The notes beneath the pieces were generated by a model. It had not been told where the DNA came from. It saw only the letters and a list, made by a program, of their open reading frames with translations, and did not search any database. This document shows, piece by piece, positions 17,405 to 43,997 of a stretch of 47,666 nucleotides of DNA; the stretch's first letter is position 1; each line of letters starts with the position of its first letter. The stretch comes from an uncultured Bacteroidales bacterium (GTDB lineage Bacteria > Bacteroidota > Bacteroidia > Bacteroidales > UBA932): contig ONMJ01000012.1 in the NCBI GenBank assembly GCA_900318955.1, positions 1 to 47,666 of the forward strand, in the 5' to 3' direction. Both the position numbers and the translations under genes were made by a program.

Positions 17405-20400
17405 TTAGAATTCAGAGTAATCGGTAGTCAGTTTATTGCATGTATAGACATTTGTCCTTCCTCCGGAGAATATCCGCCTTGTCACCCTGACCTCCCAGTC
17501 AGTTTCTGAACTCGGAGAGCCGGAAGAGGGTTTGTAATACCAGTAATGGCTTGCCGTTTTACTCACCCAGGTGTCGGTATTCTTGGAAAGTTCGTTGAAA
17601 TAATAAGAGCAGATTGCGATATTTGCGCAGGAGCCGTTCGGAACGCGGACGAAGTCGCCTTTCTTAACTCCTCCCTGCCAGAATTCAACTTTGCAGTAGG
17701 AATCGTCATCGTCCCAGACTTCTGCGACAAAACAATCCTTGAGGGCTGGATAGCCGACAGCAGTAATACCTGCCGTCCCGCCTACATTGGCCTCTTTGTA
17801 CCAATTATAAGTGTAGCCTTTCTTACCCGTATAAGTCTGGTTGCCGTCATAGACGCGAACTTGGTATGAAGCATCCCTATTGGTCCCCTTATTGACCCAA
17901 TTCTCTATAGTCGCACCATTAACCTCATAGATATTATATCCGTTAGGTGCGCCGGTAACGCTGGACTGGCTCGCCCACCAAGCTCCGCACGCAGCCTGAT
18001 GGATATGCTCGTAAATAGGCTTCCCGCCCTTGCAAACATATCCGGTGTGGATGTAATTCTGGGGATAATGGGTATGGCCGATCATTATATGGGCTTCATT
18101 GAACTGGGTCAGGAGGGAGAGAATATCAGCATAGTGCTTGTCCCTGTTGACATTCGATCCTCCGGAGGCAGACCCTCCCCTGAACGGAATATGGCCGCAG
18201 AAGAAGATCATCTTGGATTCCTTGTCCTTCACATAAGAGAGATCTTCGACAAGCCACTGGTACTGCTCATCGGAATAACCGGCATTGTACTTCCATGTCG
18301 CCCCGTCAGGAGAGCTGTTTGATGACGTAGTAGTACATACTACATTATCCATCACTACAATATGGACATCTCCCCTATCGAAAGAATAGTCGGTAGGGCC
18401 GAAGCGGCGGACATAATGTGCCGTAGCGGCATAGTCGGAAGTCGTAGTCGAAGTATGGTCATGGTTGCCGATACACTGGAAGAACGGAATAATACCGTCC
18501 GTTGAACGTATATTCGACATCGACGATTTCATATTATCCCACATGTTTGTGGAATCAAAGATGATGTCGCCGAGAGTCATCGCATAAGGGTGCTTGTAAG
18601 ATCCAAGGGACTGGGCTCCTCCGATTGTTGATTTGATATCGGGAATCGTCTCGCTCTTGTACCGGTTGACATTTGAAGTTGTCTTGCACTGAGGGTCGCC
18701 AATAGCGATGAATGTAAATGATTTTTCCGATTCGGAAAGCGGCCTCAGAGCGAAATCGAAACGATTCTTTCCAGATGTATTGATTGCTCCGGTAGAATAG
18801 AAGAGCGGGAATCCGGTAGCTGGATCGAGCGGAATCTCATACTCGGAAGGAATTGAGAGATAGACATTTCTGGCACGAGAATCCAGTTTCATCTGGTAGA
18901 CTCCATTTGCATCCGTAGTAGTATATGAATACCCGTCGGTAACCGGGATTCCGGGGATGGCGCTTCCTGTCTCGCTGTTTGTCACAAGTCCGTAGGCATT
19001 GTTAAGAGGATTGATGGAAGTACCATTGAGCTCCGAAGGATTTGACGCACCATAGGAAACAAGTTCTATAGTGACATTGTCAATATAGCACCGGTGCTGG
19101 GTGGAGCCAGCGTTATTGTCAAGTTTCGCTCCGATTCCGATTCTGGACCCAGCCGGGACATCTTCCAGAAGAACTGTATATCTTCTGAAAGCGGGGTCAT
19201 CAGAGATAGCAACCTCCTTTGAAATAATCGGACTGACAGATGTAAAATCAAGCCAATACGTATTAGCAATAGAGGCCCCTTTAGGGAAGACATCCACAAT
19301 CGAAGTAAGGCCGTCCATCGTAGTCGTCGCCGCCCATTCATAATAAGGAGCAGCATCGAATGAGACCCTGAGGGTAGCAGTCTCCTTGAGACAATCGAGC
19401 TCAGGGGTAACAATATCTCCGGTACAGTTGCTGGCGCCTATCTTTATTATTCCAGACTGCACGCAGATTGCCCCGGCCAGGTTATTTTGAGCATATGCCT
19501 TCCATGAAGAAAGACGGGAAATGTCGACCTCCTTAGCTACTGTGTTGAATAAGCCCATATGGATATTCGGAGAAACCAGATAGAGAGCGGAATTCGTTCC
19601 CTTGGGATCTTCACCCTGCGGAAGAATGAAAGGAGCGTCATTTTTCCTTGAAGTGGAAGAGTATCCTGAAAGTCCGAGAACGGGTTCGCCGCCATAAGTA
19701 AACTCATTGAAATTCTCCCGGAGAATGACTTCTCCTTCATTAGCGGATGCCGGGGTCCCGTTGAATAGGACATCGGTTGCAGCTGTCTTATACTCCCTCA
19801 CAGAACTTGTCTTAAGAACAGTATCTGTCACTTTTACATAATAGGTCGTCTCGGGAGAGAGCCCTGAGAGGATTAATCCAGGCTGGAAAAGCCTTTTTGA
19901 AGCAGAACCGCCCCAATTATAAATATATCCGGTGCCGTTATTATAAAGAGATGTCTGTCCACCTCCATTTTCTGAAACAGTCCACTGCCAGAGGAGATTC
20001 TCGCACGCCTTGTCAGAATAAACGCCTACGACATAGGCATCGGCAGCGTCCGCAGAGATATTGGCAAAGCTATTGACCGACCAGCGGATACCAATCTGAG
20101 AATCGGTAAGAAGAGCCAGTTCCTGCTCCGGGCCGGTGCTATAAGGAGTCATTACGATAAGCGACTTTCTTGCCACCTCGAATGACTTTGAAGATGATTT
20201 CTGAGAAGATGGTATAAGTGTGCCGGATGCATCCTGAAGTTCTACAGAAAACCCGTTGTAAGTTCCTGTCGGAAGAGGGACATCCACGGTCAATGGACTC
20301 GGGCACGGAGAAGGAAGAGTAAAAGATATTGAAGAGCCCCCTGAAAGAGCTGCTGCTGAAATTGTTGCTTGAGCGTCTGCTACGTCAGCAACCCTGAAAT

Positions 20401-20938
20401 CTCCATAAATTCTGAGATTGGGAGAAGTAAAAACAAAGGTACGGGCCTCTGCAGGCACGTCCTCGATAATTATTCTCATGACTCCTCCGACATGGCGGAA
20501 AAATGCAGCTGATTCTTTCGCATCGATACTGGCTATCATAGGAAGAGCAATCTTTCCGTCAGAAGAAAACTCATGATCTTTAGGTAGATTGATCTTCAGT
20601 ACACTTCCGCTCAAAGACACGGCAGAAGAAGCCGGATAAACGGCAAGAGAGCCTATCGTCTCAGAAGGGTCCAGGTCTGCTGCAAAATCAGCCTTGGATG
20701 TGCCTTCTCCGGATATAATCGAAAATGTTTTGAAACTGCCGGAGGATGTCATCACCGCTATTTCATCCCCCGAAGACCAGGAGAATTTTCCATCCGAATC
20801 GAAGGCGACACGGACTGCTCCCTCCATTCCGGCATGGATAACTACCCTGCCAGGCGCTACTACCTCATGCTCCTCTTCGCAAGCTGTGAACAAGGATACC
20901 AAAGACAAAATTGCAAGAAATAATACCGACTTCCTCAT
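17405..20938 (-). CDS. Large calcineurin-like phosphoesterase lipoprotein with fimbrillin-like and jelly-roll domains
   Basis: 1177 residues from ATG 20938 (MRKSVLFL); an ORF extension upstream lacks a signal start. The lipobox is LFTAC (Cys20), followed by EEEHE. A fimbrillin-like module (FSWSSGDEIAVM, LAVYPASS, FFRHVGGVMRI) spans about 30-290, then an Fn3-like unit, a jelly-roll-like domain around 405-650, and a carboxypeptidase-like beta domain (MetallophosN type) near 665-735. The metallophosphoesterase follows with GDPQ, GDIIFD, GNHDH, GHIPF and GHTHY, then a MetallophosC-like C-terminus. All metal ligand motifs are present, so it should be active on a phosphoester outside the cell. The C-terminal half is paralogous to the 24561-26330 protein. 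It leads an operon with the micro-ORF and GLUG lipoprotein. Confidence 0.88.
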   Translation of the reverse strand: MRKSVLFLAILSLVSLFTACEEEHEVVAPGRVVIHAGMEGAVRVAFDSDGKFSWSSGDEIAVMTSSGSFKTFSIISGEGTSKADFAADLDPSETIGSLAVYPASSAVSLSGSVLKINLPKDHEFSSDGKIALPMIASIDAKESAAFFRHVGGVMRIIIEDVPAEARTFVFTSPNLRIYGDFRVADVADAQATISAAALSGGSSISFTLPSPCPSPLTVDVPLPTGTYNGFSVELQDASGTLIPSSQKSSSKSFEVARKSLIVMTPYSTGPEQELALLTDSQIGIRWSVNSFANISADAADAYVVGVYSDKACENLLWQWTVSENGGGQTSLYNNGTGYIYNWGGSASKRLFQPGLILSGLSPETTYYVKVTDTVLKTSSVREYKTAATDVLFNGTPASANEGEVILRENFNEFTYGGEPVLGLSGYSSTSRKNDAPFILPQGEDPKGTNSALYLVSPNIHMGLFNTVAKEVDISRLSSWKAYAQNNLAGAICVQSGIIKIGASNCTGDIVTPELDCLKETATLRVSFDAAPYYEWAATTTMDGLTSIVDVFPKGASIANTYWLDFTSVSPIISKEVAISDDPAFRRYTVLLEDVPAGSRIGIGAKLDNNAGSTQHRCYIDNVTIELVSYGASNPSELNGTSINPLNNAYGLVTNSETGSAIPGIPVTDGYSYTTTDANGVYQMKLDSRARNVYLSIPSEYEIPLDPATGFPLFYSTGAINTSGKNRFDFALRPLSESEKSFTFIAIGDPQCKTTSNVNRYKSETIPDIKSTIGGAQSLGSYKHPYAMTLGDIIFDSTNMWDNMKSSMSNIRSTDGIIPFFQCIGNHDHTSTTTSDYAATAHYVRRFGPTDYSFDRGDVHIVVMDNVVCTTTSSNSSPDGATWKYNAGYSDEQYQWLVEDLSYVKDKESKMIFFCGHIPFRGGSASGGSNVNRDKHYADILSLLTQFNEAHIMIGHTHYPQNYIHTGYVCKGGKPIYEHIHQAACGAWWASQSSVTGAPNGYNIYEVNGATIENWVNKGTNRDASYQVRVYDGNQTYTGKKGYTYNWYKEANVGGTAGITAVGYPALKDCFVAEVWDDDDSYCKVEFWQGGVKKGDFVRVPNGSCANIAICSYYFNELSKNTDTWVSKTASHYWYYKPSSGSPSSETDWEVRVTRRIFSGGRTNVYTCNKLTTDYSEF

Positions 20939-21016
20939 TTTTAATGTGTTATTAATCAACTCACAATAATACAAAAAATTATTTAATTATGTTATTCAGA
21001 ATTTTATTATTGGGGA

Positions 21017-24560: not shown

Positions 24561-26330
24561 CTAGAATGTACTGTAATCAGTTGTCAGCTTATTGGCAGTA
24601 TAGACATTCTTCTCGCCTGATGCTGCGATAGTGTGAGTCGCCCGTACTTCCCAGTTCTTTTCAGCGGAAGGGGTACCTGAAGCCGGCTTGTAGTACCAGA
24701 AGTGGCTGGCAGTAGAGCTGGTCCATGTACTGGTAGATTTGTTCTTCTCATTGAACCAGAAGGAAACGATAGGAATGTTGCAGATGCCGCTGGCGGCAGC
24801 TCTGGTGAAATCTCCCACCTTTGTTCCATTCTGCCAGAACTCGAGCTTCCAGTTGGAGGCATCGTCATTGAACACCTCGGCCACGAAAGCACCATCTGCA
24901 GCAGCGAAGCCCTTTGCAGTGAGACCGTTGACAGTATTAGAAGTGCTGGACCATTTGAGTTTGTAACCCTTTGATCCGGTGAACTCCTGATTTCCGTCCC
25001 AGATTCTCATCTGGAAACTGTCATCAAAGTTGGAGCTCTTCGCCTGCCAGTTCACGATCGTGCTACCGGAAATCTCGTATAGGCCATATCCGTTCGGACC
25101 TCCGGTCACATTAGAGTTGCTTGCCCACCATGCACCGCAAGCTGCTCCATGAACATGTTCATAGATAGGCTGGCCGCTCTTGGTCTTGACCGAATGGATG
25201 TAGTTCTGGTTGTAGTGAGTATGCCCGATCATTATATGAGCCTCTTTGAATGTGGAAAGAAGGCTCAGCACAGCTGCATAATTCTTCGTCTTATTGACGG
25301 AAGATCCGCCGCTGTTGGCACCTGAACGGAACGGGATGTGACAGCAGATAATCACGAGCTTATCGGCTGCATTCTTGACATTGGCGATATCCTTTGTCAG
25401 CCATGCAAGCTGCTCGCTGCTGAAACCGGACTCATAAGTACAGGTCTTTCCATTGCTCTTGGATGAGGAGTCGAAACCGGTCACCCAGACATCATCCATG
25501 ACGACAATATGGGCATTGCCCCTGTCGAAAGAATAGTCCTGAGGACCGAAGTACTTGACGAAGTTGGTCTGGGCAGTATACTGCATCGTCGCATGATCCA
25601 TTGAGGAATTGATAATGGTTCCGTCATGGTCATGGTTACCCATGCACTGGAAGAACGGAATGGTAACTCCTCCGGTGATGACATTTTTCATCGAAGCGTA
25701 CATGGGATACCATGTATTGTTGCTGTCGAAGATAATATCACCAAGGGTAACTGCATAGACGTTCTTATGGTTGGCAGCATCTTTCCTTATCTTGGGGATA
25801 GTTTCGGATGCATAGCGCGCGACGTCGGATGTAGTTGCGCACTGGGGGTCGCCGATAGCAATGAGGGTGAAATCAGTCTCAGGAGCCGAAAGCTTCTCAA
25901 GAGTGAAGTCCACGCGATATTTCTTCCCGAATTCAAGATTATCCTTGCAGTAGAAGAAAGGATATCCGTCAGCATTCTGATAAATCTTGTAATCAGAAGG
26001 AGTCGTGTAGTAGACTTTGCGTGCAAGCTTATTGAAAGTCAACTGATAGACGCCATTGGCATCGGTCGTCGACCAGGTGAAGCCGTCAGTGACATTCACG
26101 CCGCTGATTCCAGCGCCGGTAGCTTTGTCTTTAACTACACCGGCCACTGTAATATTGCTACCAATCGAGGTCCCGTTGATTGATGACTCTGTAAGCTCTG
26201 TCATCACGGGATCGCTACCTCCGGTTGAAGGAGCAGGCTGAGGAGTATCTTCCGGATTGTCAGGGTTGCAGGCGGCAGCCATAAAAAGGGCTGCCGCTGC
26301 AATGTAAAAGAATCTGTTAATTTTTTTCAT
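24561..26330 (-). CDS. Calcineurin-like phosphoesterase lipoprotein (SusCD operon)
   Basis: 589 residues from the second ATG (MKKINRFF). The lipobox is FMAAAC (Cys21), followed by a Pro/Asp/Glu-rich linker. A MetallophosN-like beta domain (ISGVNVTDGFTWSTTDANG) spans about 60-140. The catalytic domain has GDPQ, GDIIFD, GNHDH, CHIPF and GHTHY motifs, all the usual metal ligands. The C-terminal ~190 residues are MetallophosC-like (MRIWDGNQEFTG through WYYKPASGTPS). It is third in the SusC-SusD operon (6-nt gap after SusD), so its product or substrate is probably imported by that SusCD pair. It is paralogous to the C-terminal half of the 17405-20938 protein. The phosphoester substrate is unknown. 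Confidence 0.9.
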   Translation of the reverse strand: MKKINRFFYIAAAALFMAAACNPDNPEDTPQPAPSTGGSDPVMTELTESSINGTSIGSNITVAGVVKDKATGAGISGVNVTDGFTWSTTDANGVYQLTFNKLARKVYYTTPSDYKIYQNADGYPFFYCKDNLEFGKKYRVDFTLEKLSAPETDFTLIAIGDPQCATTSDVARYASETIPKIRKDAANHKNVYAVTLGDIIFDSNNTWYPMYASMKNVITGGVTIPFFQCMGNHDHDGTIINSSMDHATMQYTAQTNFVKYFGPQDYSFDRGNAHIVVMDDVWVTGFDSSSKSNGKTCTYESGFSSEQLAWLTKDIANVKNAADKLVIICCHIPFRSGANSGGSSVNKTKNYAAVLSLLSTFKEAHIMIGHTHYNQNYIHSVKTKSGQPIYEHVHGAACGAWWASNSNVTGGPNGYGLYEISGSTIVNWQAKSSNFDDSFQMRIWDGNQEFTGSKGYKLKWSSTSNTVNGLTAKGFAAADGAFVAEVFNDDASNWKLEFWQNGTKVGDFTRAAASGICNIPIVSFWFNEKNKSTSTWTSSTASHFWYYKPASGTPSAEKNWEVRATHTIAASGEKNVYTANKLTTDYSTF

Positions 26331-26336
26331 CATCTA

Positions 26337-28166
26337 TTATTTCCAGTCATAATTCTGACCGAGAGCGGGGTTGATGGTGTATGCGTCGAGAGGAATCGGG
26401 CGGCAATACTTCCTGGGCTCCCACTTGAGGCCATACTTGTAGACAAGGTAACCGTGGTCACCCTCTGAAAAGAACCAGTCAGTATTGACAGCGTCACTCT
26501 CGGGCTTGATAGGATAGCAGGTTGTACCATTGGTCGCACCGTCTGAAGCCTTTTCGAAAGTATAAGTCATGCCCTCGAAAACAAGGCCGTCAGCAGCTTC
26601 CTTCTCGGTAACCCAGATACCTGCCCAACCGACTCCTTTGTATCTTCTGACAACGAGGTCGGCCTGACCGTAACGATAGATATCGTTCTGGCGAAGCTCG
26701 CTCTCGAAAGTCAGCTCGGTCACCCTCTCACGACGGATCTCGAGCATGACAGGAGAGATGTTTGTTGCCGGATTGACAAGATCCTTTGTGTAATACTCAT
26801 AGAGCCAAGGATCCCTTTCGGTAGGATAGACATTGGTAACGCCGGCCCTTTCGCGAAGGGCGCCGACAGTCTTGTTCCAAATATCAACTGTCATCTCGCC
26901 GAGAGCCTCAGTTGCCTCAGCATAGTTGAGAAGAACCTCTGGATAACGTACGATAGGAATACTGGTCTCGTCGATACTGTTCTGGAAGTGAGTAGCATCG
27001 GGAACGCACCATTTAACAATCTGATATCCTGTCTTGCAGAATGAGAAGTCGATTGTCTCATGTGCAGGCTGTCCGGACTCGTTGAGGATATTTCTGCCAG
27101 GTCCGAGGACTGTAGCGGAAAGTCTTGAATCCCTGCCGTTGAATTCGGTATTGATAGACTGCCTAGCCTCATCATCGGAGATCGGAGTACCGTCAACTTT
27201 GAGGAACATACGGACAAGGTCCTTGGTTCCTGAATACTGCTGTCCGAGAGTCGATGAATGGAAGTACCTCGTATATGAGTGACGACCATTGACATCGGTA
27301 AGGAAGGTCTTTCCCCAGATAACTTCCTGAGGAATGAGCTTATCGGAGATAAACAGCGAAGGATAATCCTTGACGAGGGAATAGCCGCCATTGTCAATCA
27401 CGTCTTTCGCATAAGTCTGGGCAAGTCTGTAGAGGTCCTGAGGGGTCTCATACTGGTTGGTCCAAGGCTTATTGGTAGCGGGATTGACATGGACATTCTC
27501 GCGGAAGGAAGCCTCATAGAGGAAGAAACGGGATGCAAAAGCCTCAACGATATCCTTGCAGATGACAGAGCGCTCATCTGTCTTGAACTTGCCGTTCATG
27601 ACATTCGCGCAAGCGAATTTGAGATCCTCTGTCATCATGTGGAATACATACTCACGGTCATCGCGAGGTCCGTAAAGGATAGCGGTGTCAGTAGGTTGCA
27701 CATAATGCTCTACCCAAGGAACATCGGAGAAGAGCTTGATTCTGGTCATATAGTTGTATGCTCTCCAGAAACGGGCAACTCCCTCATAATGGTTGTAGAT
27801 TTCCTCAGAGACTTTCTCTTTTGCCCTTGACATATTGTCAAGCATATAGTTAGTCCTTCTGAGGAAGCCCCATGACCAGGAGCCCTGACGGGAACTGTTC
27901 CACTCGACATCGGAACGGAAGAAGTCAGTTGAGGTCTTGGTGGCGATCAGGTCGTTATATGCATCACCTCCTGCTGTTTCAGTATAATCCGGCATATAGC
28001 TGTTGAGCATACCGTTGGCATACATTTCAAGCTCAGCCTCAGAGGCGAAATATGTCTCGGCGCTGAACTCATTGATAGGCTCCCTCGTGAGGAAATCTTC
28101 AATAGAGCAAGAGCTGATTCCGAGAGCTATAAAGGATGCGCAAAGGAAGTAAAATATCTTTTTCAT
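26337..28166 (-). CDS. SusD/RagB-family nutrient-binding lipoprotein
   Basis: 609 residues from ATG 28166 (MKKIFYFL); ATG 28181 would add five residues. The lipobox is GISSC (Cys20), then SIEDFLTREP, the typical SusD N-terminus. The EGVARFWRAYNYM and SFIPDYSFCKTGYQIVKW-type regions and the late YPEVLLNYAEATEALGE helix are family hallmarks. The C-terminus PIPLDAYTINPALGQNYDWK is standard. It sits on the outer surface as the lid of the SusC transporter. It lies between SusC and the phosphoesterase in one operon. Confidence 0.94.
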   Translation of the reverse strand: MKKIFYFLCASFIALGISSCSIEDFLTREPINEFSAETYFASEAELEMYANGMLNSYMPDYTETAGGDAYNDLIATKTSTDFFRSDVEWNSSRQGSWSWGFLRRTNYMLDNMSRAKEKVSEEIYNHYEGVARFWRAYNYMTRIKLFSDVPWVEHYVQPTDTAILYGPRDDREYVFHMMTEDLKFACANVMNGKFKTDERSVICKDIVEAFASRFFLYEASFRENVHVNPATNKPWTNQYETPQDLYRLAQTYAKDVIDNGGYSLVKDYPSLFISDKLIPQEVIWGKTFLTDVNGRHSYTRYFHSSTLGQQYSGTKDLVRMFLKVDGTPISDDEARQSINTEFNGRDSRLSATVLGPGRNILNESGQPAHETIDFSFCKTGYQIVKWCVPDATHFQNSIDETSIPIVRYPEVLLNYAEATEALGEMTVDIWNKTVGALRERAGVTNVYPTERDPWLYEYYTKDLVNPATNISPVMLEIRRERVTELTFESELRQNDIYRYGQADLVVRRYKGVGWAGIWVTEKEAADGLVFEGMTYTFEKASDGATNGTTCYPIKPESDAVNTDWFFSEGDHGYLVYKYGLKWEPRKYCRPIPLDAYTINPALGQNYDWK

Positions 28167-28184
28167 TATTCTTTCCTCCATTCT

Positions 28185-31100
28185 TTACTGTTTGTCAATA
28201 ATAACGCAACGGGAAAGTTCCGGAAGGTCGGAGATGTCTGCGACCTGATACGTAACTTCATATGCGTCCTCGCTTACACCAAGTTCTCTCATAAGAGCGG
28301 AAACCGTATTGGCACGCTCTTTCGCGAGACGCTGGTTAAGCTCAGCATTACCGGTACCGGCGTCAGCATTACCCTTGAGGGAGAAGTTGATCTTCTCACC
28401 GGCAGAGATAAGATTGCGTACTGCCTCGGCGACACGGGCCTTCTCACTTGCGGTAAGAGTGCTCTTTCCAATTTCGAAGTAAGCTACGATAGGATTGAAC
28501 TTGAAGCTTTCCTTCTCGATGACCTCAACGGTATTCTTCGGAGCAGGAGCGGGAGCAGGTGTACCTGCAAGCTGGTCGCGAAGAGCGTTGATTTCCTTCT
28601 GAAGGGCATTCTTCTCGTCATCGGCCTTCTTCTGTGCAGCAGCGAGTCTCTCAGCTGCAGCTGCCTCGGCTGCAGCGACTGCAGCATCGATAGCGGCCTT
28701 TGCGCTGGCTGCAGAAGCTGCGGTAGCAGCTACAGGAGCAGCAGCTCTTGAAGGAGAATGAACACCTGCGAAGGTCAGGTTGATACCGAAGGTGAAGGTA
28801 CGGAGCATCGGGTAGCTATATCCCTCACCGACACCGGAAAGACCATAGTAGCTTGCTCCGGTAGAATCGAAGTCGGAGTCACCGATGGAGATAACCTCAG
28901 GGTCGAACATCTTGGTGCGCTTGAACAGCGGAGACCATGTCCAGAGGTTCTCGATAGAAGCATAGAGCCTGAGGTTGGAGATATCAATCTTCTTTGTAAG
29001 ATTCTCAGGGAATGTGTAATCGAGAGTGAGGTTCTTAAGACGGATGTATGCGACATTCTGGAGATAGTGGTCGTTCTCATAAGTAAGAGGACCTACGTTA
29101 CGGTTGGCTGAATAACCGACTCGACGTGACCAGTAAGGATTTGAGTCATAGTTGGTAACAGTCCAGTTCGGAGTGCTGTAGTCAACATGGGCATAGTTGT
29201 CGCCAGTCTGTACATAGGTCAGATACGGGCTATACGGCCTGTTGTACTGGCCATAGAAGAAACCGGTCTCGACTGTAGGATACCAGTCTCTCTTTCCGAC
29301 TCCCTGGAAGAACAGGCTGAGACCTGCACCGGCCCACTTGAAGTCGAGGTTGAGACCATACTGATAACGAGGAGTAATGTTACCGATTCTCACAAGGTCA
29401 CCGGAGTCTTCAACGGTATACTTTCCATAATTGATGTCGCCGTCACCGTCGATATCGACGAATTTAAGGTCACCGGCGTATGCACGGAAGTTGGATCCGT
29501 TCTTATGGAATGCATCGGTAGCCCAGTTGTTGGCTTCCTCATTGTCACGGAAGATACCGTCGGTACGGAATCCCCAGATTTCTCCGAGTTCCTTGCCGGC
29601 ATAGTAGTTATTGATGATATGGGTTGTAGTCTCATACTTGGTTACCCAGGTACGGCTGTCCCAAACGCTTCCCTTGATGCTATACTGGAAATCCTTTCCT
29701 GCGAGCTTGAACTGGTCTCTCCATGAGAGAGTAGCCTCCCAACCGTCGGTCTTGAGGGCCGCATAGTTTCCGGTCGGAGAAGATGTAGAACCGTAGATAG
29801 CAGGGATTTCAGGTCCGGCGGTGATAAGGTCGTCGGTGATACGGCGATAGATGTCACCGGAGAATGAGAGACGGCTGCGGAGCATATCGATATCAAGACC
29901 GATATCATATGTAGTAACGGTCTCCCAGGTAAGGCTGGTAGGGATAGGTGTAGGCTGGGTGGTATAGTTGGCCTTTACTCCTCCGATGACGATTCCGGTC
30001 TTGTCGACACCCATTGTCTCGAGGAAGGTATAAGGGCTTACAGTACCATTTCCGAGTGATCCCCAGTTGGCTCTGATCTTGAAATTGTCAAGCCATGAGC
30101 GGGACCAGCTCATCCAAGGTTCCTCGGACACACGCCATCCTGCTGATGCTGAAGGGAAGAAGCCCCACTGCTGGCTTGTCGGGAACTTGGAGGATCCGTC
30201 ATAGCGGGCTGAGAACTCGATGATATAGCGACGCAGAAGAGTGTAGTTGGCACGGCCGAAGAAACCGATAATACCGTAGCTGCTGTCGTTCTGCTCAATC
30301 TTAATATCTGTTCCGTCGAAAAGCTCATAGGATGAATACTTATCCGGGAAGAGCATACCTTTTCTCTGGAGATAGAAGCGGTTGTACTGATAATTCTCGA
30401 GGTTCCATCCACCGACGACATTGAGGTCATGGTTAGGACCGAGCTTCGGGGTCCAGGTTGCAACAACGTTGGCCTGAATCTGATCGGTATCATAAGTCCA
30501 GCGGGACTTGTATGAGGCTTCCTGAGTTACATAGGCAGTTGAAGAACCGGGAGCGGTGTAGAATGTAAGAGGAGCACGATAACGCTCTCTCCAGCGGCGG
30601 ATTCCGCGATATCCGAAATCTCCGCGAACTTTGAGGACATCCTTGATGATATTGAGGTTGACACCGGTAGTCGTAGTGATCACGAAGTTGGAATCATCCT
30701 GACCGGTATTACCCTCGATAAATGAAGCATAAGAGGTCTTGTTTGCAGCAAGGGCGAACGTACCGTCATAGTTATAAGGAACGAGAACAGGCTGTCCGTG
30801 CTGGTCTACCTGGTGGCCTACGAGGGATCCGGTGGTGAACATCGGCTGAGTCTGCGAGCTACGGAAGATAGAAGTATTGTTATCGATTGAAAGCCAGTCG
30901 TTGACAGAGAGCTTCGCCTTGTTTCTGATTGAATAGGTGTTGTAATTCTCATCACCCATATTGTAGATACCGTCCTGGCCGTAATAACGGGCGGTGAGGT
31001 TGTAAGAAAGCCTCTTGCTGGATCCTCTTACGCTGAGGTCATGGGTCTGTGAGCCATAGTGCCTCTTGTAGAAGAACTTGAGCCAGTTGGTGTTGCCATA

Positions 31101-32171
31101 ATAGAGGAACTGTCCGCTACTGCCGAGAGCGTATCCTGTAGGATCGTCTGCAAGAACACCATACTCGTTGTAAGCCATGCCCTCTGCACGTGCTGCAGCA
31201 ATAGCACGATAGGAATCCAGATAAGTGGTTCCGGACATTGCTACATTCTGGGTATTGATGGTTGTAGGAACTTTTCCGGAAGCACCCGGAACAGCTGCAT
31301 CGGCAGCATAGAACTCATAGAAAGCCTCCAACCACTCAAGACCGTCGGAGACGATGTTGTCCTCCCATTTGATAAGTCTTTCGTTAATTGAATAAGACCC
31401 ACTGTAGGAAATTGACAACTTTTCATCCTTGGCCTCTTTGGTAGTGACGAGGATCACACCGTAAGCAGCCCTGGCACCGTAGATAGCAGCTGAAGAAGCA
31501 TCCTTGAGGACTGCGACAGTCTCTACGTCGTTAGGGTTGACCTGGCTGAGAGATCCCTCGACACCGTCGATGAGAACGAGGGCAGAGCCGCCGTTTCCGA
31601 TACTGTGACCGGCACCGGAAGCACTCGTTGCACTTGAACGGGTATTGTAGGAAGTCTTGTTACCACGGATATAGATACCTCCGGAGTGGCTTGCCTTACC
31701 ATCAGTCTGGATAATGTTAAGACCGGCGACCTGTCCCTGGAGCGAACGGGTGATGTTGCTGTTAGGACGGTCCGCGATAACTTCTCCGTCGAGGTTCTCG
31801 ACGGAACCGACAAGCTGTGTCTTTTTCAGGGTACCGTAACCGACGACAACTGTTGCGTCAAGGGTCTCCGCATCAGTTTCAAGAGTGAAATTGATTGAAG
31901 CCCTGCCGTTAATAGGTGTCTCAAGCGTCTTGTAACCGAAGAACTGGCACACCAGTGTACCGTTCTGCGGTGCTTTGATTGAATAGGCACCGTTAGCATT
32001 GGTAACGTCACCGATACTGGTGCCTTTTACCATTATGGCAGCTCCCGGTACAGGCTCTCCCGTACTCGCGTCATAGACAACACCGGAAACTGTCATATTC
32101 TGTGCAAAAACCGACACACTCATGAGTAGACCCACGAGCGCCGCCGCACAGGAGAAAATCTTGATTTTCAT
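28185..32171 (-). CDS. SusC/RagA TonB-dependent transporter with C-terminal OmpA-like domain
   Basis: 1328 residues. Signal peptide 1-23 (VFAQ), carboxypeptidase-D-like beta domain about 24-110 (VSGVVYDASTGEPVPGA), plug from about 110 (VVVGYGTLKKTQLVGSV, LVLIDGVEG, IYGARAAYGVILVTTK), then the barrel, which ends as usual with FTFGINLTF at about 1125-1134. Normal SusC proteins stop here. This one continues for 194 residues: an Ala-rich, coiled-coil-like linker (1142-1204), a Pro-Ala hinge, and an OmpA C-terminal-like domain (1215-1328) with YFEIGKSTLT, GNADAGTG and RLAKERANTVSALM. That domain normally binds peptidoglycan diaminopimelate. It is first in the operon with SusD and the phosphoesterase and should import their ligand using TonB. 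No STN domain is present. Confidence 0.93.
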   Translation of the reverse strand: MKIKIFSCAAALVGLLMSVSVFAQNMTVSGVVYDASTGEPVPGAAIMVKGTSIGDVTNANGAYSIKAPQNGTLVCQFFGYKTLETPINGRASINFTLETDAETLDATVVVGYGTLKKTQLVGSVENLDGEVIADRPNSNITRSLQGQVAGLNIIQTDGKASHSGGIYIRGNKTSYNTRSSATSASGAGHSIGNGGSALVLIDGVEGSLSQVNPNDVETVAVLKDASSAAIYGARAAYGVILVTTKEAKDEKLSISYSGSYSINERLIKWEDNIVSDGLEWLEAFYEFYAADAAVPGASGKVPTTINTQNVAMSGTTYLDSYRAIAAARAEGMAYNEYGVLADDPTGYALGSSGQFLYYGNTNWLKFFYKRHYGSQTHDLSVRGSSKRLSYNLTARYYGQDGIYNMGDENYNTYSIRNKAKLSVNDWLSIDNNTSIFRSSQTQPMFTTGSLVGHQVDQHGQPVLVPYNYDGTFALAANKTSYASFIEGNTGQDDSNFVITTTTGVNLNIIKDVLKVRGDFGYRGIRRWRERYRAPLTFYTAPGSSTAYVTQEASYKSRWTYDTDQIQANVVATWTPKLGPNHDLNVVGGWNLENYQYNRFYLQRKGMLFPDKYSSYELFDGTDIKIEQNDSSYGIIGFFGRANYTLLRRYIIEFSARYDGSSKFPTSQQWGFFPSASAGWRVSEEPWMSWSRSWLDNFKIRANWGSLGNGTVSPYTFLETMGVDKTGIVIGGVKANYTTQPTPIPTSLTWETVTTYDIGLDIDMLRSRLSFSGDIYRRITDDLITAGPEIPAIYGSTSSPTGNYAALKTDGWEATLSWRDQFKLAGKDFQYSIKGSVWDSRTWVTKYETTTHIINNYYAGKELGEIWGFRTDGIFRDNEEANNWATDAFHKNGSNFRAYAGDLKFVDIDGDGDINYGKYTVEDSGDLVRIGNITPRYQYGLNLDFKWAGAGLSLFFQGVGKRDWYPTVETGFFYGQYNRPYSPYLTYVQTGDNYAHVDYSTPNWTVTNYDSNPYWSRRVGYSANRNVGPLTYENDHYLQNVAYIRLKNLTLDYTFPENLTKKIDISNLRLYASIENLWTWSPLFKRTKMFDPEVISIGDSDFDSTGASYYGLSGVGEGYSYPMLRTFTFGINLTFAGVHSPSRAAAPVAATAASAASAKAAIDAAVAAAEAAAAERLAAAQKKADDEKNALQKEINALRDQLAGTPAPAPAPKNTVEVIEKESFKFNPIVAYFEIGKSTLTASEKARVAEAVRNLISAGEKINFSLKGNADAGTGNAELNQRLAKERANTVSALMRELGVSEDAYEVTYQVADISDLPELSRCVIIDKQ

Positions 32172-32520: not shown

Positions 32521-35500
32521 ATGAAATCGTTAAAATTTCTGGCAACTGCTGCTATTGTGTCGGCCTTCGCTCTCACAAGCTGCGTCCAGGACGTGCTTGA
32601 GACCGGAATCGACACCAGCAAGCCGGGTGTGACCAATCTCACTTACGGTGAGGTCGCTCACGGAAGCAAGACCATGACTTTGTACTGGTCAGGTGCCGAA
32701 GCAGTCAATGCAGGTGCCACTTCCTTCTCTGTCCAGTTCCTTGAGAACAAGGACACCCTCGGAGGAAAACTTCTCAAACCTGACATGTACGACCCTTCCA
32801 TCAGCAAGACTGTGGAAATCGTCAAAGATGAAGACGGACTTGTCTCTACCACTGACTTCTCAGCTCAGATGGAAGGCCAGACCGTCGGCAACAAGTATTA
32901 TATCCGCGTAAGGGCCAACTACCCCATGTCGATTTATTCCGACTGGACATGGCTCACCGACGCTCAGGGCAATATCGCATATTTCAAAGTAGGCCGCGGT
33001 ATTATCACTGAAGGCATCGAAGACCCTTATCTTTTCAAAGTCACCGGAACTTCTACCGGACTTATCGTAAAGTGGGATGCTATTCCTGATGCGACTTCCT
33101 ACCAGGTCGAATACAAGAAATCCAGTGAATCCTCATGGACTTCCGAGACCGTTCCTGCAGGAGCAGATCTCCCTACAATCCTCAAGATCAAGAATCTCCC
33201 TTCTGAGACTTCTTATGATGTAAGGGCGAAAACCATCACCCCTGCCGGCGATTCAGATTACTGCGACGTACAGACCGTTTCTACCCGTAAGCCCGGATCC
33301 TTCCCTAAATCCATGAAGGACGCCAAGGAGCTTATCGACTGGCTCGAAGGCGGTGTCGTCGAGGTAGAGCCTTCAGATGTATTCACCCTTGCCGCTGACA
33401 TCGACCTTACCGGCCAGACATTCACCGCTATGGATGAGTCTCTCCTCGGTACATTCGATGGTGCAAATCACACAATCAAGGGCGTTTCTTCGACTCTCCT
33501 ATATGATATCGAATCCACAGGTACTGTAAAGAACCTGACCATCGAAGGAACGATGAACTCTTCCGACGAGAATTTCGCCGGTCTCGCCCTTTCCAACAAG
33601 GGAACGATTACCGACGTCGAGGTAAAGGCTAACATCAATTACGACGCCACCCTCTCCAGCCTCATGAAGGTCGGAGGTATCGTTGCTGACAATACAGGTA
33701 CCCTCAAGAAAGTAACCTATTCAGGAACCCTCGCAGCTACTTCTTCTCAGAATGTAGCAGGTCCCATTGTTATCGGAGGTCTTGCAGCTTACTCTGCAGG
33801 TACCATCGAAGACAGCCACAACAAGGGTCCTGTCAGTTTCAAGACCGCAAATTACATCCAGGGAATGGCAGTTGCCGGTCTCGTAGGATATCTTGAAAAT
33901 GCCATCACAGGTTCAGACAACTCTGGCGCTATCGCCATTGAAGCCGCAAATGCTGTTGCCAAGGCCGCCCTTATCAATACTTCCAGCGCTACTCCTACTG
34001 TCGCAGGTATTGCCGGTTATGGTAACACCGATGCATTCGCTATCACTGACTGTACAAACGACGGTCTTGTCAGCTACACCCTGAAGACCATCGACCTCCA
34101 GAAGGATGGTAAGACTACTGCAAGCGCAAACTACAACAGAACTCAGGTCGGCGGTATCGTCGGTAATCCTTACGGAAAGGTAACCCGCGCAATCAATAAC
34201 GGTACGATTAGCATCAACATGGGAACATCTACCGGCGAGGTATTCACCGGTTCCAACCATGAGCACATTATATGCGCCGGCGGTATCGGCGGCGGTGACT
34301 ACTTCGCCGGCGCAGACCAGAACAAGACTTCCTATATCGACTGCGTCAATAACGGAAAGATCAATGCTTTCGTAGGCTCAGCCCAGTCCAACTCCGCAAT
34401 CGGCGGTATCGTCGGATGGCCTGGCAAGGAAGGTTCCCGTACTAATAGCACCAGCGGTTGTAAGAACACCGGTAACATCACCCTCACAGGTCCCGGAAAG
34501 GTCCGTTGCGGCGGTATCCACGGTGGTTCTGGTATCATCACCAACTGCGAGAACAGCGGTAACATCGTCGCCAACGACGGTACTGCCTGCTCCCTCGGAG
34601 GTCTTGCAGGATTCTCTTCCAATGGATTCAAGATCACCGGAAGCCGTTCTACCGGTAATGTAACAGGAAATGTCTCCGGATTCAATGTCGGAGGTCTCCT
34701 CGGAAATATCGGTAACTCCGCAGGTTCAGGCGGATTCACAGGATGTAGCGTAAGCGCAACCGTGAAGGCCGCTGATCCCGATCAGGCTACCTCTGGTATG
34801 ATTATCGGATATTACAATGGTACATCGGCCGCTACTTCTGCAGGAACTGCAGCCAGCCCTGTCCTTGTCAACGGTATCTACAATGGCACCAAGCTTACCG
34901 CAGGCAACTTCTCCAACTATCTCGAAGGAAAGAATAACAAGGCAGACGTTCATGAAATGTATGCCAAGTTCGACGAAACTCCTTATGAGCCTGAAGGCGG
35001 CGAAGAGCCTGTAACTCCTGCTCTTGAGTCTCCTCAGAACGTCAAGGTAGAGGTCTTCTATAACTATACTACAATCAGCTGGGATGCCGTAAACGGCGCC
35101 GAGTGGTATGTTGTCGAGTACAAGAAGTCCGGCACAGACAATTGGGTGCCTTGCGAAAAGACTGAGAACACTACCTACACTATCGAAGGTCTCGATCACG
35201 GCTCATCATACTCATTCAGAGTAAAGGCTTACACCACAACCGGTTCCGGCTACTCTGACGAGGCTTCAGCAGAGACCTATGAAGAGGTCAACCTCGGAGC
35301 TCCCGTATATTCTTCAATATCAGCAACTGCTACAGAAATCACAGTCAGCTGGCAGGCTGCTGCTAATGCAACAGGATATGTTATTGCTTACAAGAAGGCA
35401 ACCGACAGCGATTTAATAATCGCCAAAGAGAATGTCAGCGAGCTGAATTACAAGATCAGCGGGCTTGATCCTGAAACCGCTTACGAGGTCTTTCTCAAGA

Positions 35501-36780
35501 CCCTCGGTCAAGGTGGCAACGAATCCGCATGGTCAGCTGCAATTCCTGTCTCAACAACTGAGCTAAAGAAGGTCAAGACTCCTACAGACATTGTTGCAGC
35601 TCCTAAGTTTGAAGCAGTGACACTTACGTTCCCTGCACTTAAGGGCGCTTCTTCGTTCGAGGTTTACTCCGGTAGCACTAAACTCGAAAGCACCGTCATT
35701 TCCGCTGAAGGCGCAGAAAAAACTGTCCTGCGTGTTTCCGGTCTTAAGACTGGCGAGAGTTACTCTCTCAAAGTCAAAGCATTCTCTTCCGATCCTGAGA
35801 TCGAAGCTTCTGACCTTTCCGCGGCCGTAACTGCAAAGACAGCCGAAATCAAGGTCATAGCAAACAGCCCTACAGATGTCGTCATCGAATGGACTGACGT
35901 CCAGAGTGCTCACAAGTACGATATCGGCCTTGCAGATGCAAGCGGAAATCAGATTGGAAGTACCTACACTATTACCGTAGGTAAATCTACAATACCGACC
36001 GGTACCAGCGTTCAGCTTCCTTGCCGCTTCCAGTATCCGGCCCTTCAGCCAAACACTCCTTATAAACTTCTCGTTAAAGAGAACGGCGATGAGAAATTCA
36101 CCGCATTTGACGTCACAACTGCAGCCAAGCATACCGCTGGAAGCAAAGAAGTATTCTTCCAAGGCTTCGACGATGCTATCTGGGCTGGCGACTGCCGTAC
36201 TTTGGGTTACAGTCTCATGTCGAAAGCTGCCGCCACAATTGAAGTCGTAGATTGGCCGGTTACCACAGATTGGCTCTGGAGTAATGAGAATTCAGCCACA
36301 ATCTCTCCTGGTGCTGCAACCCGCTCTTCGGCTATATTCACTTACGCAACTGCCGATCCGGAGTGCTCGTTCTACGGATATGCCCAGGAAGGTGTAGAAA
36401 TGCACAACGGTTATCTTAAGGTTGGTTCCGGAAGCGTTATCGGATACATCCAGACTGCAGAGCTTGGAACAAGTAAGCTTTCTGCTGACAGCGAGACATC
36501 ATGCACCATAACGGCTAAAGTATGTCCTCGTTCAGACGCCACTGCAAGTACAGCAAAAATCAATTTCGTGGTTGTCCACTCAGATGGAACCGAAACTATT
36601 GCCCTCCAGAATTTTGACGTCGTGACCAACGGTGATTCTTACAACTTCACATGGAAAGAAGCCAAAGCGACGGGAGTTAAACTCCGTTCTACTGACAAGC
36701 TCAAGATTATCGCTGCTACCGAAACGGCCAGCGGTGCTTGGAGATTCCATCTTGATGATATTCTCATCGTAGCTGAATAA
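32521..36780 (+). CDS. Giant surface lipoprotein: Fn3, GLUG repeats, Fn3 tandem, jelly-roll
   Basis: 1419 residues. The lipobox is ALTSC (Cys21). A beta domain covers 30-165, and an Fn3 domain (LIVKWDAIPDATSYQVEYKK) about 170-260. A LATE-type helix SMKDAKELIDWLEGG leads into GLUG repeats from about 310 (FDGANHTIKG) to 770. Two or more Fn3 domains (TTISWDAVNGAEWYVVEYKK, EITVSWQAAANATGYVIAYK) span about 840-1110. The C-terminal ~210 residues look like a jelly-roll carbohydrate-binding-like domain starting VFFQGFDDAIWAGD and ending RFHLDDILIVAE. No catalytic motif is seen. It is transcribed divergently from the SusCD operon and probably binds the same ligand or adheres to a surface. A bidirectional terminator follows. 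Confidence 0.85.
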   Translation: MKSLKFLATAAIVSAFALTSCVQDVLETGIDTSKPGVTNLTYGEVAHGSKTMTLYWSGAEAVNAGATSFSVQFLENKDTLGGKLLKPDMYDPSISKTVEIVKDEDGLVSTTDFSAQMEGQTVGNKYYIRVRANYPMSIYSDWTWLTDAQGNIAYFKVGRGIITEGIEDPYLFKVTGTSTGLIVKWDAIPDATSYQVEYKKSSESSWTSETVPAGADLPTILKIKNLPSETSYDVRAKTITPAGDSDYCDVQTVSTRKPGSFPKSMKDAKELIDWLEGGVVEVEPSDVFTLAADIDLTGQTFTAMDESLLGTFDGANHTIKGVSSTLLYDIESTGTVKNLTIEGTMNSSDENFAGLALSNKGTITDVEVKANINYDATLSSLMKVGGIVADNTGTLKKVTYSGTLAATSSQNVAGPIVIGGLAAYSAGTIEDSHNKGPVSFKTANYIQGMAVAGLVGYLENAITGSDNSGAIAIEAANAVAKAALINTSSATPTVAGIAGYGNTDAFAITDCTNDGLVSYTLKTIDLQKDGKTTASANYNRTQVGGIVGNPYGKVTRAINNGTISINMGTSTGEVFTGSNHEHIICAGGIGGGDYFAGADQNKTSYIDCVNNGKINAFVGSAQSNSAIGGIVGWPGKEGSRTNSTSGCKNTGNITLTGPGKVRCGGIHGGSGIITNCENSGNIVANDGTACSLGGLAGFSSNGFKITGSRSTGNVTGNVSGFNVGGLLGNIGNSAGSGGFTGCSVSATVKAADPDQATSGMIIGYYNGTSAATSAGTAASPVLVNGIYNGTKLTAGNFSNYLEGKNNKADVHEMYAKFDETPYEPEGGEEPVTPALESPQNVKVEVFYNYTTISWDAVNGAEWYVVEYKKSGTDNWVPCEKTENTTYTIEGLDHGSSYSFRVKAYTTTGSGYSDEASAETYEEVNLGAPVYSSISATATEITVSWQAAANATGYVIAYKKATDSDLIIAKENVSELNYKISGLDPETAYEVFLKTLGQGGNESAWSAAIPVSTTELKKVKTPTDIVAAPKFEAVTLTFPALKGASSFEVYSGSTKLESTVISAEGAEKTVLRVSGLKTGESYSLKVKAFSSDPEIEASDLSAAVTAKTAEIKVIANSPTDVVIEWTDVQSAHKYDIGLADASGNQIGSTYTITVGKSTIPTGTSVQLPCRFQYPALQPNTPYKLLVKENGDEKFTAFDVTTAAKHTAGSKEVFFQGFDDAIWAGDCRTLGYSLMSKAAATIEVVDWPVTTDWLWSNENSATISPGAATRSSAIFTYATADPECSFYGYAQEGVEMHNGYLKVGSGSVIGYIQTAELGTSKLSADSETSCTITAKVCPRSDATASTAKINFVVVHSDGTETIALQNFDVVTNGDSYNFTWKEAKATGVKLRSTDKLKIIAATETASGAWRFHLDDILIVAE
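33445..34800 (+). repeat. GLUG-type protein repeats
   Basis: Around nine imperfect units with IGG(L/I)AxY-type strands and CxNxGxI turns (for example TDCTNDGLV, IDCVNNGKI, SGCKNTGNI). They resemble those in the 14414-17248 lipoprotein. Boundaries are approximate. Confidence 0.65.
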
Positions 36781-42620: not shown

Positions 42621-43997
42621 TTATTTTATCCTTTTACCATTGAATCCTATACCGCCTTTAGACTTTTTCTCAAGACGGAACTCAACTGCGATAGTTATAG
42701 AGGTTGAAACTTTCTTTCCCCTGTGTCGTCCAGGCTTCCATTTCGGAGAAGCGCTCACAATCCTAACCGCCTCTTCGTCAAGTGCCGGGCTGACGCCTCT
42801 TGAAACTTTAACGTCCTTCACATTACCGGAAGCATCCACTACGAAATCTACGAGCACTCGGCCCTGGTTGCCGGCATCAAGCGCCTCTTTCGGATACTTC
42901 AGGTATTGATAGACCCATTTTTCCATGAATACAGAAGGATCACTGCTTCCCATGAATGTCGGACGGACATCTATATCATTGAAAGACAAGACCTTCCCTT
43001 CCGAAGAAGCAGCTGCCGCGGAGGTGACATCCGGGCGGAAAAGAGGTTTCGGAGCACCGGAGAGAAACACGATGTAATTATAAATGAACTCGAGTTCTTT
43101 CTCCATCATTCCATAGTCAAGAATCGAAGGAGTGTCGCGACCTGTATTATGCTCTGGATAACGGCCAGTAGTGAACATCACCGACGGTATTTCCTTGTCA
43201 TAAAATGCCATGTGATCTGACGGATATGGCTCAATAGCAGTTATTTCCGGGATGATGGGAAGGATTTCCCCTTTCATCGAAGAGAGAGTCATATTCATAT
43301 CCGCATTCGATGAGGTATAGGCATAGAAGCCCTCGGTTCCCGTTCCAAGCATGTCAAGATTAACCATTGCATCTATCATTCCAGCATCGCTGAATGAGCG
43401 ATTGAGGAAGTACCATGATCCGGCTAGTTTCTCATTCGATGCGCCGAAAGCAACCAGAAGTATGGAACGGCGAAGGCTAAGCCTGCTCGTGCGAAGCATC
43501 CTTGCCAGTTCCAACAACATAGCCAACCCGGAAGCATTTCCATTGGCACCATAATAGATGCGACGGACTTGTTCTCCATCCACTGTGTATGTATCCGATC
43601 CGAGATTGTCGAGGCGGGCTCCGATAACTATATACTTGTCATACAGAGAATTGTCAACGCCTTGGATAAAGGCGGCCACATTGCGGGAAGTAAGCGTGTC
43701 CCCTGATGAGGATACAATACCGAACTGCTCCCCTGCCTCCGGGGTAATGAGCTCCACTCCATAGGAAGAAAGGGTCTTCCCGACATATTCGGCGGCAAAA
43801 GCCTCCCCTTCGCTACCTGCCTTTCGGCCGTCTGCCTCTGCAGAAGCAATTATGGAGACATGCTCTTTAAGAGCAGTAACAACTTCGCTGTCATAGAATG
43901 AGGATAGATCTACACTCTTGTACTGGGCTGACGCCGAGACTCCCGCAAGGAGCAGCGCAGCAATTATGGTCCATGTCTTTTTCATGGCTCTATTCAT
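42621..43997 (-). CDS. M28-peptidase-like protein fused to TonB C-terminal domain, probably inactive
   Basis: 458 residues, or 454 from the ATG at 43985 (MKKTWTI). The signal peptide ends near SASAQ. Residues about 40-330 follow the M28 zinc-peptidase pattern, but key residues are changed: IGARLDNLG has Arg128 where the metal His is expected, GANGNASG has Gly153 for the bridging Asp, and FGASNEKLAGS has Ser-Asn for the Glu-Glu pair. LDMLG and YPSDHMAF are retained. Residues about 370-450 are a TonB C-terminal domain (YPKEALDAGNQGRVLVDFVV, then WKPGRHRGKKV). It may be a binding protein rather than an enzyme. It overlaps the SPOR gene by 8 nt. Confidence 0.82.
   Translation of the reverse strand: MNRAMKKTWTIIAALLLAGVSASAQYKSVDLSSFYDSEVVTALKEHVSIIASAEADGRKAGSEGEAFAAEYVGKTLSSYGVELITPEAGEQFGIVSSSGDTLTSRNVAAFIQGVDNSLYDKYIVIGARLDNLGSDTYTVDGEQVRRIYYGANGNASGLAMLLELARMLRTSRLSLRRSILLVAFGASNEKLAGSWYFLNRSFSDAGMIDAMVNLDMLGTGTEGFYAYTSSNADMNMTLSSMKGEILPIIPEITAIEPYPSDHMAFYDKEIPSVMFTTGRYPEHNTGRDTPSILDYGMMEKELEFIYNYIVFLSGAPKPLFRPDVTSAAAASSEGKVLSFNDIDVRPTFMGSSDPSVFMEKWVYQYLKYPKEALDAGNQGRVLVDFVVDASGNVKDVKVSRGVSPALDEEAVRIVSASPKWKPGRHRGKKVSTSITIAVEFRLEKKSKGGIGFNGKRIK

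Follow-up and report, generated by a model that had tools for sequence, protein, structure and literature searches.

SusC/RagA transporters (TIGR04056) are described by a family model that stops at the last strand of the beta barrel, and the OmpA-type peptidoglycan-binding domains closest to the one considered here belong to other kinds of protein. The C-terminal domain of Acinetobacter baumannii OmpA (structures 3td3 and 3td5) comes from Omp38/OmpA and not from a SusC-family transporter, and that of the type IX secretion protein PorE (6top) belongs to a multi-domain periplasmic lipoprotein rather than a transporter. Here we describe a gene that joins the two in a 47,666-nucleotide (nt) stretch of DNA (the window; contig ONMJ01000012.1 of assembly GCA_900318955.1, from an uncultured Bacteroidales bacterium). 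This susC-ompA gene is one unbroken open reading frame (ORF) on the minus strand, running from ATG to TAA and encoding 1328 amino acids (aa); it resembles SusC/RagA in its full-length match to aa 1134, its plug, its CarboxypepD_reg domain and its adjacent SusD, but adds 194 aa after the point where the model ends. No SusC-OmpA fusion is described in the titles, abstract openings or passages of the open-licence PubMed Central (PMC) literature searched. The parts of the gene are as follows.

28185 to 32171, minus strand: susC-ompA fusion gene, 1328 aa, with TIGR04056 and PF00691 in a single ORF
31845 to 32090, minus strand: CarboxypepD_reg-like domain, aa 28-109 (PF13715, E 3.2e-19)
31455 to 31820, minus strand: TonB-dependent receptor plug, aa 118-239 (PF07715, E 1.9e-13)
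28770 to 32171, minus strand: canonical SusC part, aa 1-1134, last residues FTFGINLTF (TIGR04056 to 981/981 at aa 1134)
28188 to 28769, minus strand: C-terminal extension, aa 1135-1328, without counterpart in 40 plain SusC
28566 to 28721, minus strand: Ala-rich linker helix, aa 1151-1202 (helix in the AlphaFold2, AF2, model, residues 59-110)
28536 to 28562, minus strand: Pro-Ala hinge TPAPAPAPK, aa 1204-1212 (from sequence; predicted local distance difference test, pLDDT, below 50 there)
28188 to 28493, minus strand: OmpA-like domain, aa 1227-1328 (PF00691; purpose-built hidden Markov model over aa 1227-1328; fold)
28362 to 28364, minus strand: Asp1270, presumed ligand of meso-diaminopimelate (meso-DAP), D in 75 of 76 fused proteins and N in one
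28335 to 28337, minus strand: Asn1279, presumed meso-DAP ligand, kept in 76 of 76
28314 to 28316, minus strand: Arg1286, presumed meso-DAP ligand, kept in 76 of 76

The boundary between the two parts is exact, since TIGR04056 matches aa 27-1134 up to its last model position, with a whole-protein score of 752 bits against a curated cut-off of 368.25. The motif FTFGINLTF (aa 1126-1134, nt 28770-28796) ends at the same residue, and the extension is therefore 194 aa long (nt 28188-28769 plus the stop). PF00691 matches aa 1231-1308 with 28.4 bits in the whole protein and 31.2 in the extension alone (gathering cut-off 27.2), so that a domain search finds both the SusC and the OmpA models above their cut-offs in one ORF. 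The Pal lipoprotein model TIGR02802 reaches only 26.7 bits against an equivalog cut-off of 125.35; the protein is thus not Pal and shares only Pal's domain type. All 40 plain SusC proteins of our comparison set end 0-6 residues past the alignment column of the barrel end, 38 of them exactly at it, and the window SusC departs by 194 residues from this usual form, in which the protein stops with the final strand of the barrel. An earlier sequence-only reading had placed the barrel end at FTFGINLTF (about residue 1134), divided the 194-residue continuation into Ala-rich linker, Pro-Ala hinge and OmpA-like domain, and called the architecture non-standard because SusC proteins normally end at the last strand. 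The coordinates are exactly as it gave them and sequence, AF2 and PF00691 bear out the division; the architecture does depart from the usual SusC form, though it is recurrent in the genus.

The same reading had allowed that structure prediction might give no OmpA fold, and the opposite was found: the AF2 model of the extension has the beta-alpha-beta-alpha-beta-beta order of OmpA, structure comparison agrees, and the linker is modelled as a helix (pLDDT blocks of 52-81 over model residues 61-110). Asp1270 and Arg1286, which it had assigned to diaminopimelate-binding positions, line up in profile alignments with Escherichia coli Pal and PorE, as does Asn1279; two papers name the roles of these residues. 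The Asp-Arg spacing is 16 residues in the window compared to 15 in A. baumannii OmpA (D271-R286). Judged by the conservation of these residues, the domain very likely binds the meso-DAP of peptidoglycan via Asp1270, Asn1279 and Arg1286, and we infer peptidoglycan anchoring from the fold, the conserved residues and the topology. It has also to be considered that the fold was kept and wall binding lost, the domain now docking another periplasmic protein or dimerising. OmpA-fold domains such as YfiB bind proteins too (YfiB-YfiR complexes are among the structure-comparison matches) and one fused protein, L089, lacks the Asp, but the retention of Asp in 75 and of both Asn and Arg in all 76 fused proteins, despite very divergent domains, makes this improbable. 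L089 (326-4168) is a fused SusC whose OmpA domain is distant from all others.

The fusion is not confined to the window. Two more occur in the source genome (L006, 1250 aa, and L007, 1237 aa, on contigs C45 and C49), and a search of 400 genomes of the genus returned 113 fused rows in 46 of them. In 108 of these rows the match spans the barrel end and the OmpA domain without a stop; the other five matched the OmpA part only, in frames longer than 900 aa, and in all five the SusC profile, whose training set included some fused proteins with their extensions, matches the same frame. Five of the 108 spanning rows lie in frames shorter than 900 aa, two being truncated by contig ends and two split between two frames, and three of the 46 genomes (G070, G093 and G135) count on one such frame each. 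We used 73 of the 113 rows, which with three from another genus gave 76 distinct fused proteins, inspected 12 more and left out 28. Among these 12 further loci, three are cut by a contig end (L181, L182, L185), two are whole (L191, L192), five are the OmpA-only rows, which hold SusC, and two are split between frames (L183, L184). The split loci, L183 (1-2017; on G135:C40) and L184 (787-4400; on G070:C4), each consist of two overlapping frames and are either decayed copies or assembly errors.

Outside the genus the matches listed include full-length fusions, among 199 family genomes, only in the source genome and three genomes of one other genus, and, among 395 genomes across the class, in the source genome only; the same was true of 324 genomes across the order. 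These large searches, that of the genus included, scored 6-12 candidates per genome with a profile built from this genus's fused proteins, and absence elsewhere is therefore not proven. The fusion-bearing relatives with names are four uncultured Bacteroidales assemblies, one of them from goat abomasum. In all 76 aligned fused proteins the extension begins directly after the last strand and is 152-194 aa long; by a motif rule 57 linkers consist of VEK/EVVKE repeats, 18 are Ala-rich and one is of another type.

The ratio of non-synonymous to synonymous change (pN/pS), compared over 16 pairs of related fused genes, is 0.11-0.50 in the OmpA domain and 0.05-0.35 in the barrel end, and the OmpA domains of these genes are under purifying selection. 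Together with the recurrence, this shows the architecture to be more than chance. A misassembly or lost stop fusing susC to a neighbouring ompA, a danger to which the sequence-only reading had itself pointed, might be suspected from the draft state of the source genome (67 contigs) and from the two split loci elsewhere. We nevertheless regard it as ruled out for the window gene, with next to no probability left to it, by the recurrence in many contigs and genomes, the constant starting point of the extension in the alignment and the selection on the domain; in addition, SusD lies as close to the fused gene as it does to susC in plain relatives.

In this genus the extension behaves like an exchangeable 3' cassette of susC, with gain or loss, replacement, and copying from one paralogue to another. 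On a FastTree phylogeny of 116 SusC proteins with the extension removed, the fused/plain label changes 11 times, ten of these changes being forced by starred branches, although the event numbers are rough because resemblance to the window was the main criterion for choosing the plain rows, FastTree gave a warning about long branches meeting, and the corresponding domain tree has few columns (107). For the same reason of sampling, a large clade of 52 that contains fused proteins only may include plain ones outside our set. The SusC-SusD-phosphoesterase cassette of the window exists at five loci in three extension states: the window has the Ala-rich extension, L037 (73% identical in SusC, 65% in SusD) a VEK extension only 26% identical to it, L036 (66% SusC) likewise a VEK extension, its third cassette gene not being seen in the stretch examined, and L013 (66%) and L014 (65%) have SusC without extension. 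In the IQ-TREE phylogeny the closest partner of the window is L037 (96/97), and that of L036 is the plain L013 (100/100). A single clade of the window, L036 and L037 fused genes was rejected (approximately unbiased, AU, test, p 2.1e-5). The difference between the window and L037 needs a replacement or two gains, and for a given change gain and loss are indistinguishable. Within the type A group, five fused genes are interleaved with two plain ones that nest among them; a single fused clade was rejected there more weakly (AU p 0.027), and fused and plain members have a common GGAGGAACAG stretch ahead of SusD (four shown).

Copying is most direct in genome G278, where the OmpA-domain DNA of L019 and L034 is identical from approximately the beginning of the domain until just a few bases short of the stop codon. 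Their linkers differ, their barrel ends (last 400 aa) are 51% identical in amino acids and 59% in nucleotides, and the DNA diverges again past the SusD start. More broadly, VEK-type domains from the same genome (23 of 1596 pairs) resemble each other more closely than expected from their barrels (mean residual +0.045, a value that 6 of 2000 label shuffles attained), while across all types the amount by which the DNA identity of the domain exceeds that of the barrel is nearly equal in same-genome and other pairs (0.142 vs 0.130). Two loci in different genomes, L011 and L035, have barrel ends 97% identical and OmpA domains 68% identical, the domain of L035 being 78% identical to that of L037 in its own genome.

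The extension seems to derive from more than one OmpA lineage. On the domain tree (16 of 102 inner branches starred) the fused domains fall in several groups, and those of the window and L071 belong to a starred group of 11 rows, four of which are stand-alone OmpA-domain proteins. L023-L026, stand-alone proteins from this genus (378-394 aa) that are members of this starred group, share with the window an Ala-rich linker followed by an OmpA domain, with 42-43% identity to its extension, but carry the domain after about 280 residues of another N-terminal part and not after a SusC transporter. A donor within the source genome was considered and rejected, three of its four short-frame OmpA-domain proteins (L008, L009 and L178) not being nearest to the window domain on the tree.

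Taken together, we propose that the protein is a SusC TonB-dependent barrel with a periplasmic wall tether, the tether being an exchangeable 3' cassette in the genus, and we put the probability of this joint reading at roughly two in three. The barrel ends of outer-membrane proteins of the SusC class face the periplasm, and the extension is therefore expected to be periplasmic. From the last beta strand the chain would enter the periplasm as a helix of about 52 residues, which could span some 78 Angstrom (52 residues x 1.5 Angstrom, calculated), and continue through the Pro-Ala hinge to the OmpA domain. By holding meso-DAP this domain would tie the SusCD pair to the wall, fixing its position and setting its distance to TonB, as the sequence-only reading had suggested and as our results favour; the wall may then bear part of TonB's pull, and the fusion would add a further link between outer membrane and wall.

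Several observations weigh against this proposal, besides the roughness of the trees and the two split loci among the 12 inspected. Close relatives exist without the extension, which is thus dispensable for having a SusC, and the linkers are fast-evolving (pN/pS 0.09-0.69 in the same 16 pairs). The Asn in place of the ligand Asp in L089 indicates that wall binding may not be universal. A 1199-aa AF2 model of plug, barrel and extension, built with five sequences, had a pLDDT of 30 and was not used, so that modelling supports the fold of the extension but not where the domain sits against the barrel. Finally, short-frame OmpA-domain proteins are retained in all 13 fusion-bearing genomes searched, so that the tether is not the sole possible wall link; their retention also leaves unsupported the idea that fusions replaced stand-alone OmpA.

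The last observation bears equally on the possibility that the extension serves mainly envelope integrity, the SusC barrels acting as extra staples between outer membrane and wall with transport unaffected. SusC proteins are abundant, and similar OmpA domains occur on very different barrels and different domains on similar barrels, as expected if the substrate of the barrel is irrelevant. PMC12204202 reports a failure to detect pal genes in the Bacteroidetes of one genome database and itself proposes other wall tethers, which would also fit. However, short-frame OmpA-domain proteins are kept alongside the fusions in 13 of 13 genomes and fusions were found in 46 of the 400 genomes of the genus, which means that such a need is not a general one, and we think this explanation clearly less likely than the proposal above.

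Two further genes complete the cassette downstream of susC-ompA.

26337 to 28181, minus strand: SusD partner lipoprotein, 3 nt from susC-ompA by its first ATG (PF07980, E 4.8e-29)
24561 to 26333, minus strand: calcineurin-like phosphoesterase, third cassette gene (PF16370/PF16371/PF00149)

By synteny the phosphoesterase likewise follows SusD in L013, L014 and L037, and the distance to SusD is equally short in plain relatives. With a purpose-built profile, SusD adjoins 62 of the 76 fused genes and all 40 plain ones. For ten of the other 14 fused genes the downstream protein was compared with Pfam: four match SusD (L078, L079, L082, L088) and the other six match BACON and not SusD, five above the curated cut-off and L080 below it. 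In this BACON group (L058, L059, L062, L075, L077, L080), which forms one starred clade, a lipoprotein-like protein of 455-463 aa replaces SusD. At L037 a longer frame contains the SusD (65% identity to that of the window), and L066, L081 and L085 have no adjoining SusD by the SusD profile alone. Divergent to susC-ompA lies a 1419-aa protein with several fibronectin type III domains (32521-36780, plus strand). Elsewhere in the window a 458-aa ORF (42621-43997, minus strand) shows an odd pairing of Peptidase_M28 (106-301) and TonB_C (365-442), a 1189-aa ORF (17405-20974, minus strand) has in its C-terminal half a calcineurin-like phosphoesterase like that of the SusD neighbour and in its N-terminal half no Pfam match at E 0.001, and an 859-aa ORF (7733-10312, plus strand) ends in a DNA/RNA non-specific endonuclease domain.

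More speculatively, and at somewhat less than even odds in our view, the 3' end of susC may be, in this large uncultured Bacteroidales genus, a recombination hot spot for interchangeable peptidoglycan-binding cassettes, with transporters wall-anchored or free as diet selects and doubling as staples between outer membrane and wall; wall tethering of TonB-dependent uptake would then be tunable and fast-evolving. The architecture bears on two questions, the resistance of TonB transporters to TonB's pull and the linkage of outer membrane to wall in Bacteroidota, and both can be tested on natural pairs of related SusC in which one partner lacks the wall-binding domain or the two carry different ones. 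The exact copying of a domain between paralogous susC genes shows a route by which transporter architecture can change within a genus.
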